From NCBI RefSeq assembly GCF_003611695.1, contig NZ_RAWE01000014.1, forward strand, positions 1 through 64,000: 64,000 nucleotides of DNA. The letters run 5' to 3'. The notes under the pieces were generated by a model. It worked only from the letters and a program-made list of their open reading frames with translations, made no database searches and was not told the DNA's origin. This document shows, piece after piece, positions 50,442 to 52,209 of the stretch; the stretch's first letter is position 1, and the number at the start of each line of letters is the position of its first letter. The DNA comes from Corallococcus carmarthensis. GTDB taxonomy: Bacteria > Myxococcota > Myxococcia > Myxococcales > Myxococcaceae. The position numbers and the translations under genes were made by a program.

Positions 50442-51083
50442 ATGGTGGTTCAGAGGAAGGGTGCGACGACGGTGAAGGCCGGCACGGCGGTTCGCGGGCC
50501 GGAGGGCACGGAGACACCCCGGCCGTTCGTTCCGCCGGTGGGGGCTTCGCGCAGCGCGCCCACGCCCGGCGCGGCGCCTCGCATTGAGATGAACCAGGGG
50601 GAGCCGGAGCACCGGCACTTCCCGCGCGCGCAGCTGGCCACCCACTTCGACCTCTGGGTGGATGACGGCGCCGGAGGCCGGCGCTTCAGCGCCAACCTCG
50701 TGTCCATCAACGTGAGCGTCAGCGGGGCCTTCCTCGCGAGCACCTTCTTCCTGCCCATGGGCACGGTGGTGCGCACGCGCTTCGCGCTGGAGGAGGGGGC
50801 GGCCCCCGTGGAGGCCCGCGCGGAGATTGTTCGCGAGGAGCGCGGCCCGGAGGAGGAGGGCCGCAGCGGGTTCGCCCTGCGCTTCCTGGACTTCTCAGGT
50901 CAGACGGAGGTGGCGCTCGCCCGGCTCTTCCTGGGCATGCGCCTGCGTGCCTTCACGGAGGACTACCTCAAGTCCCAGCGCGCCCGCTCCCTGCCCAATG
51001 AGCTGGAGCGGGTCATCGACGTGATGGCGGCCTGGGAGCTGCTCAAGGCCACCACGCCCGGAGACCCCTGGCGCGGCGAGTAG
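50442..51083 (+). CDS. PilZ-domain protein, last gene of elongasome operon
   Basis: 213 residues. A disordered Pro/Gly-rich N-terminus (1-55) precedes a PilZ domain with both c-di-GMP-binding marks intact: R58-x3-R62 (RHFPR) and N90-x-S-x2-G95 (NVSVSG). Helices at the end (ALARLFLGMRLRAFTEDYLK, ELERVIDVMAAWELLK) may contact a partner. GGAGG at 50432-50436 fixes ATG 50442. Placed 17 bases after rodA, it may link cyclic di-GMP to cell-wall elongation; this is inferred from position only. Ends 18 bases from the convergent AT-hook gene. Confidence 0.87.
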   Translation: MVVQRKGATTVKAGTAVRGPEGTETPRPFVPPVGASRSAPTPGAAPRIEMNQGEPEHRHFPRAQLATHFDLWVDDGAGGRRFSANLVSINVSVSGAFLASTFFLPMGTVVRTRFALEEGAAPVEARAEIVREERGPEEEGRSGFALRFLDFSGQTEVALARLFLGMRLRAFTEDYLKSQRARSLPNELERVIDVMAAWELLKATTPGDPWRGE

Positions 51084-51101: not shown

Positions 51102-51446
51102 TCAGGCCGGCTTGCCGGTGGCGATCTGCCTGCGGCGCTCGGCCTGGTAGTGCGCGGAACACAGGCCCTTGGAGCGCTGCTCACGGGTGCAGCCATTCAC
51201 CGTGCAGCGGCGGTCCATGGGCACCGGCCCACCCGCCACCGTCTTCGGGGGACGGCCGCGGCGGCGTCCCGCCATCACCGCGCCGTTGCCCGGCGACGCC
51301 GAGGCGACGCTGCCCATGCCCGGCATCCCCGTGTTCAGCGCGCGCAGCATGCCGCGGCCGATCGCATCACCCAATGCCTCCGCCCACGACGTCAGGGCAG
51401 GGGTCAGCGGTGCTTGCGAGGTCAATTCTTTGCGAAGGCGTGCCAT
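51102..51446 (-). CDS. Small protein with AT-hook and Cys/His zinc-finger-like motif
   Basis: 114 residues. An N-terminal helix (AEALGDAIGRGMLRALNTG) is followed by the AT-hook core RRRGRPPK (residues 61-68), which typically inserts in the minor groove of AT-rich DNA. A compact C81-x4-C86-x9-C96-x2-H99 set follows, with GLCSAHY, resembling small plant-WRKY19-type or myxobacterial zinc fingers. The end is basic. AGGAG five bases before ATG 51446 fixes the start; longer open sequence upstream lacks coding character. It has a 436-base upstream region with repeated TGTCT. Likely a DNA-binding regulator, target unknown. Confidence 0.78.
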   Translation of the reverse strand: MARLRKELTSQAPLTPALTSWAEALGDAIGRGMLRALNTGMPGMGSVASASPGNGAVMAGRRRGRPPKTVAGGPVPMDRRCTVNGCTREQRSKGLCSAHYQAERRRQIATGKPA

Positions 51447-51667
51447 GAAAACTCCTGTTGAAACTCGCCAATCAAGACAGGCGTGTATCCCCGACTTCTG
51501 TCTGGTGTGGCGAACTCTGTCAATAAGACATGTTGGGGTCGTGTTTGACTCGTAATGTAATTTCAATGTCTGTTGAACAAAACATGACGGGAGGATCGTC
51601 CAGCTGTGCCAAGCGGGCGTTTGTCTCAAGTGCAGAGAAACGTCTTCCGTCGGGGGCAGCCGGCCCC

Positions 51668-51689
51668 CGGTAAGTGAAAGCCCTTACCG
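51668..51689. repeat. Inverted repeat CGGTAAG-N8-CTTACCG
   Basis: Seven-base perfect arms around TGAAAGCC, inside the upstream region of the AT-hook gene. It could be an operator or an RNA hairpin. Confidence 0.6.
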
Positions 51690-51700
51690 TTGCGGTGAGT

Positions 51701-51716
51701 TGTCTTTCTACAGACA
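51701..51716. repeat. Inverted repeat TGTCT-N6-AGACA
   Basis: Two copies of the recurring pentamer face each other with a six-base spacer. This is the only pair in the region arranged as a compact dyad, as expected for a dimeric protein site. Confidence 0.55.
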
Positions 51717-51882
51717 TATCGAACCTGGAGCTTTGTCACGCCCCGGTGTCTGGTTGGGAGCCACACACGAAGCGTCCCCTCTCACCGGGCGCGAACCCTG
51801 GCGCTGAAGGCCAGGCGCGTCATGGGTGGGAGGGGACGGGGGGACGGCCGCGAGGCGGGCCCGTCACCGGGAACACGGCGGC

Positions 51883-52209
51883 TCAGAGATTCTTCCGGAC
51901 CACTTCCTCGATGCGCGCCCTGGGCACCGCGCCGACAATCTGGTCCACGACCTTGCCGCCCTTGAAGAGCAGCAGGGTGGGGATGGAGCGGACGCCGTAC
52001 TTCTGGGGCGTGTCCTGGTTCGTGTCGATGTCCAGCTTCGCGAACTTCACCTGGCCCTTGAACTGGTCGGACAGCGCCTCCACGGCGGGCGCGATGGCGC
52101 GGCAGGGGGCGCACCACGTGGCCCAGAAGTCCACGAGCACGGGTTGCTGCGCGTCCAGGACCTGCGTCTGGAAGTCCGAATCACCGATGTTGATCACGTC
52201 GCCAGCCAT
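51883..52209 (-). CDS. trxA: Thioredoxin
   Basis: 108 residues, classic single-domain thioredoxin reducing protein disulfides in the cytoplasm. Active site is W32-C33-A-P-C36, slightly unlike the common WCGPC; Ala at the third place occurs in some thioredoxins and may shift the redox potential a little. Other marks: VLVDFWA, KLDIDTNQDTPQKYGVRSIPTLLLFKGG with the cis-Pro. AGGAGG shortly before ATG 52209 fixes the start. Divergent from the small gene at 52365. Confidence 0.95.
   Translation of the reverse strand: MAGDVINIGDSDFQTQVLDAQQPVLVDFWATWCAPCRAIAPAVEALSDQFKGQVKFAKLDIDTNQDTPQKYGVRSIPTLLLFKGGKVVDQIVGAVPRARIEEVVRKNL

Follow-up and report, generated by a model that had tools for sequence, protein, structure and literature searches.

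In Corallococcus, a soil bacterium that forms fruiting bodies, the locus raises the question of why a short intergenic stretch ahead of a small AT-hook/zinc-finger protein gene carries a dense array of the pentamer TGTCT or its reverse complement AGACA, next to a TTGACA element that stands alone. The original prediction, made on the window (the whole 64,000-nucleotide stretch of Corallococcus carmarthensis DNA analysed, from a genome of 10.8 Mb in 530 contigs), had proposed either an autoregulated DNA-binding switch or an untranslated RNA. It placed a small protein gene correctly beside a control region, but the strand had to be corrected: the gene for the 114-residue protein is on the minus strand with its ATG at 51444-51446, and the control region is therefore the high-coordinate side, 51447-51882. 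This stretch of 436 bp has a GC content of 59% against about 70% for the window. Upstream, at 51883 and above, the minus strand also carries a thioredoxin-like gene with the motif WATWCAPC, and a PilZ-domain gene is convergent with the 114-residue gene. The PilZ-domain protein (50442-51083, plus strand) also has a weak TIGR02266 match, and its gene directly follows a row of MreC/MreD/PBP2/RodA-like genes.

The start codon is preceded by GGAG in all 22 aligned rows that reach it. A 175-aa extension from a TTG start at 51629 was rejected, since small upstream indels break its frame among relatives while ATG and GGAG are kept. A 21-codon upstream frame retains its start and stop codons in 16 of 16 genus genomes, but it was also rejected as coding: most of the differences in the aligned examples alter the amino acid, and the frame sits upstream of TTGACA. 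The features of the locus are collected in the table.

Table. Features of the 114-residue protein gene and its control region, in window coordinates.
Feature	Position	Strand	Evidence or conservation
Gene for the 114-residue AT-hook/zinc-finger protein	51102..51446	-	ORF
Zinc-finger-like core C-x4-C-x9-C-x2-H, C81 to H99	51150..51206	-	four ligands invariant in 19/19 orthologs
AT-hook codons RRRGRPPK, residues 61-68	51243..51266	-	R63-K68 (RGRPPK) invariant in 19/19 orthologs
Ribosome-binding site AGGAG	51452..51456	-	sequence, ahead of ATG
Pentamer at -33	51475..51479	-	kept in 16/16 genus genomes
Site of the relatives' -10-like AATA[AG]G, degenerate here	51493..51499	-	ortholog comparison
Pentamer at -57, where the -10 is degenerate	51499..51503	+	kept in 16/16 genus genomes
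TTGACA, -35-like	51518..51523	-	present in 49/50 fetched orthologs
Pentamer at -84, adjoining TTGACA	51526..51530	-	kept in 15/16 genus genomes
Second MrpC-like site TTTTGTTCAACAGACA, one mismatch, holds one pentamer	51567..51582	-	identical in 15/16 genus genomes
Pentamer at -180	51622..51626	+	kept in 16/16 genus genomes
Second dyad CGGTAAG-N8-CTTACCG	51668..51689	.	sequence; mostly invariant in 16 genus genomes
Perfect 16-bp dyad TGTCTGTAGAAAGACA, holds two pentamers	51701..51716	.	zero mismatches to MrpC consensus
Outermost pentamer, -305	51747..51751	+	kept in 15/16 genus genomes

A total of eight pentamers were found within 277 bp (51475-51751), where the original prediction had them, against 26 in the remainder of the window. 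On the plus strand they read AGACA at 51475, 51526 and 51712, and TGTCT at 51499, 51567, 51622, 51701 and 51747; two of them (51701 and 51712) form part of the 16-bp dyad and one (51567) belongs to the second MrpC-like site. The two dyads that had been predicted are both present. The predicted excess over chance holds, with a mean of 0.98 pentamers and a maximum of 6 in 5000 dinucleotide shuffles of 51447-51760, though the half copy said to be expected was slightly low. The pentamer had been picked after it was seen, so the figures that leave the choice of word free are fairer: with every pentamer pair allowed, eight copies were reached in 6 of 1000 shuffles of 51447-51760 and in 28 of 1000 over the longer 51447-51882. 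Genome-wide, a search for AGACA, TGTCT and AGACA in alternation with gaps of at most 30 gave three matches, two of them at this locus, and one for the reversed control; the sole triple outside this locus is at G000:C99:15527-15551 (L130). No copies of the control region were detected elsewhere in the genome beyond chance matches of 16-27 bp.

Conservation of the pentamers in relatives, set by the original prediction as the test of the array, was found within the genus, and outside it the pentamers are reduced in number. In an alignment of 16 Corallococcus genomes, with a mean pairwise identity of 84% in the control region, each of the eight is kept in 15 or 16 genomes, and by the prediction's own measure the array is thus not noise. 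Invariant columns make up 33 of 40 positions in pentamers and 159 of 290 elsewhere (Fisher P about 0.001, indicative only as the 16 genomes are related); whole blocks around the pentamers are conserved as well.

At E<=1e-15 the protein has orthologs in 59 of the 145 genomes searched in the order, and upstream regions were read in 50 of these 59 (G089, G092, G095, G096, G099, G102, G113, G119 and G124 were left out). The named orthologs nearest to the gene come from Corallococcus species; genus names for the numbered groups (g-numbers) were inferred from contigs common with named loci. An AATAAG/AATAGG-like element, defined from the alignment of relatives after it was seen there, lies 18-19 bp past TTGACA in 33 of the 34 orthologs from other genera. 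None of the 16 Corallococcus orthologs has it, although all of them keep TTGACA. Several g7 matches begin inside the gene, so that distances there are shifted. The description of the window's own promoter as a perfect TTGACA lacking a -10 proved accurate, and no sigma-70 promoter pair was found in its control region. Pentamers per 320 bp number 7-9 in Corallococcus, 0-4 in the 21 loci of g19 (Myxococcus/Pyxidicoccus group) and 0-2 in the other genera apart from Citreicoccus. Both Citreicoccus (g5) loci have three pentamers and keep the -10-like element, and this promoter is an intermediate state. The GC content of the upstream stretches is alike in g19 (0.52-0.57) and Corallococcus (0.53-0.55), and composition therefore does not explain the difference in pentamers between genera. 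The control region is real, conserved and specific to the genus; its elements are of known kinds, and its interest lies in how it differs from one genus to another. One further locus, L021 (BNCN01000003.1), is titled Comamonas sp. KCTC 72670 but is of Myxococcus type, with 72% protein identity to the window and a promoter nearly identical to that of M. xanthus; the Comamonas label looks wrong or the assembly mixed.

The perfect dyad, TGTCTN6AGACA, lies about 262 bp ahead of the start codon and fits the published MrpC motif TGTYN8RAC (PMC4320627, in excerpt). Its 16-mer is exact in 15 of 16 Corallococcus genomes, once in each and always at this locus. With up to one mismatch it occurs in 16 of the order's 142 genomes searched, and the sole match outside Corallococcus is a one-mismatch copy on another contig of the g5 genome G056. 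At the orthologous promoter TGTYN8RAC is present in none of the 21 g19 (Myxococcus-group) loci and the one-mismatch dyad 16-mer in four, though an MrpC-regulated promoter need not keep its site in Myxococcus; upstream regions of other genera have 0-2 sites with at most one mismatch to the motif. Perfect TGTCTN6AGACA is found at two places in the window's genome, about the estimated base-composition expectation. The broader form TGTCN8GACA shows a modest excess there: it occurs at 46 places and its reversed control at 29, a 1.6-fold difference that hints at CRP/MrpC-type sites spread across the genome.

The genome itself encodes a 248-residue CRP-family, MrpC-like protein, which we take to be MrpC from gene context and background on the protein rather than from a database name. 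Of 59 family genomes, 37 have a match; in those of g5 and g19 the identity is 96-97%, with 97% in Citreicoccus. Among 16 mrpC-like loci examined, the start was found in 15 (L098-L101, L103-L109, L112, L113, L121 and L123) and not in L110. TGTYN8RACA is present 248-262 bp upstream of the start in all 15, which cover seven genera, and TGTCN8GACA 258-262 bp ahead of it in 11 of 11 loci of g1, g5 and g19. An enhancer-binding protein with the GAFTGA motif is encoded within 1500 bp upstream in 14 of the 15. Such a site and a neighbouring enhancer-binding-protein gene are as expected for mrpB-mrpC, and TGTYN8RACA at this place, with a spacer that varies freely, is probably an ancient site of self-binding. 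In the window's assembly the contig ends 159 bp ahead of the mrpC-like gene, and the self-site there thus falls outside the count. Note that the mrpC-like upstream regions have only 0-1 pentamers, and MrpC therefore does not explain the density of TGTCT at our locus. Moreover, 15 genomes have an unchanged dyad spacer at our locus, whereas the spacer of the self-site varies even within the genus, so conservation here may extend to more than an MrpC site.

The original prediction of RRRGRPPK and a CCCH-like set in the protein agrees with our alignment of 19 orthologs, drawn from the 59 genomes with a match; the putative metal ligands are C81, C86, C96 and H99. Eukaryotic CCCH zinc fingers have the spacing C-x8-C-x5-C-x3-H, which is not matched here. 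Pfam returned only weak Zf_WRKY19 and AT_hook matches (PF02178 at 12.6 bits, below the gathering cut-off of 17.4). A profile search gave the HNH endonuclease family PHROG 5351 as the best match to the finger (E 2.2e-6, residues 79-107). An AlphaFold2 model of mediocre quality (mean pLDDT 67.9, about 86 in the finger region) shows residues 16-39 as a helix, the AT-hook linker as disordered and the finger as made of strand and helix; Foldseek found no match to it at E<=0.001, and a PDB profile search of the protein yielded a single, meaningless match. From these motifs we infer a small protein that probably binds DNA and is perhaps nucleoid-associated. At least four paralogs (L002-L005) in the same genome have the common C-x4-C...C-x2-HY finger in different surroundings; some of them possess GRPPK-like hooks and Ala/Lys-rich linkers, and none belongs to a Pfam family above cut-off. 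No paper on this protein was found among titles and abstract openings of the open-access literature, and the excerpt of PMC8561891 contains nothing on the gene; the family is apparently undescribed.

We give moderate credence to the explanation that the promoter has been altered in Corallococcus and that transcription relies on proteins bound at the array, most probably MrpC at the dyad. The region 51447-51776 would comprise the promoter and the regulator-binding region. Relatives have a recognisable two-part promoter (TTGACA, 18-19 bp, AATAAG/AATAGG), of which Corallococcus lacks the second part and keeps TTGACA, and the genus has a fixed array of 7-9 TGTCT half-sites, two of them forming the perfect MrpC-type dyad. 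A CRP-family regulator, most probably MrpC, the master regulator of multicellular development, may act at the dyad and, with less certainty, at the one-mismatch site; MrpC has bound a one-mismatch site at pmxA (PMC8844925, in excerpt). At least one other regulator would occupy the remaining half-sites. The array and its conservation, the promoter difference, the dyad and the regulator gene are observed; binding of protein to the elements, MrpC as the factor, and an activator-dependent, developmental gene are inferred, and MrpC control of the gene is offered as a lead. The alternative that the whole array serves a regulator other than MrpC, reading single TGTCT half-sites, with the dyad incidental, is possible but doubtful. 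Four pentamers (-180, -84, -57 and -33) differ from the MrpC motif at 3-4 positions and would be left for another regulator or another cause, and some conserved sites have a common G/T-rich context, TGTCT[GT]. Among shuffles of this stretch, 5% also contain a perfect MrpC match, and 17% contain two sites that deviate at no more than one position. Against an incidental dyad stands its full agreement with the MrpC motif, retained in 15 of 16 genomes, and the one-mismatch site nearby.

The two readings of the original prediction fare worse. Binding of the 114-residue protein to the pentamers of its own promoter is suggested by the position of a probable DNA-binding protein gene next to a conserved array. 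However, the pentamers fall to 0-4 in the 34 orthologs of other genera while the hook core RGRPPK and the C-C-C-H finger stay invariant, which leaves autoregulation through them unsupported. AT-hooks prefer the AT-rich minor groove, which also counts against binding to TGTCT, and the upstream regions of the four paralogs contain 0-1 pentamers; we consider such autoregulation improbable. An untranslated or small antisense RNA encoded in the intergenic region is less probable still. The minus-strand fold beats shuffles (z -3.6) and a terminator-like hairpin lies on the plus strand at 51683-51699, but the z-score is similar on both strands, terminator-like matches average 0.9 in shuffles, no Rfam match was found for the region and the covariation term is +0.32, both partners having changed in 3 of 74 pairs. 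Similar folding of both strands with almost no covariation can be attributed to palindromic DNA sites. The hairpin has a T-rich tail, sits inside a conserved block and runs into the MrpC-type dyad.

The altered promoter with proteins bound at the array can be extended to a bolder form, which we regard as rather unlikely: a housekeeping-type promoter would have become activator-dependent in one genus through loss of the -10 and gain of the array, placing a global, nucleoid-type DNA-binding protein under developmental control by MrpC and a half-site regulator. If true, this would be a clean example of promoter rewiring, plain in most Myxococcaceae examined and regulator-dense in Corallococcus, and would link the AT-hook/zinc-finger family to fruiting-body development.

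Residues 77-107 of the protein resemble the N-terminal zinc finger of phage HNH endonucleases (PHROG 5351, 19978 and 1271; E down to 2.2e-6). Unlike these enzymes, it ends soon after the finger without a nuclease domain, the best match spanning only positions 7-35 of the 171-position profile, and an AT-hook and an N-terminal helix further set it apart. CarD of Myxococcus xanthus also bears AT-hooks. It is a DNA-binding global regulator (PMC4374960, in excerpt) and the likeness is that of a myxobacterial DNA-binding regulator with AT-hooks, though nothing resembling the CarD N-terminal domain was detected by Pfam in the 114-residue protein. The control region differs from the MrpC-bound promoters of M. 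xanthus (mrpC, fruA, dmxB and pmxA; PMC4320627, PMC8844925 and PMC10701913, in excerpt) in that most pentamers here complete no MrpC dyad and the MrpC sites are predicted ones. It resembles them in the TGTYN8RAC dyad a few hundred bp ahead of the start and in the several candidate sites per promoter.
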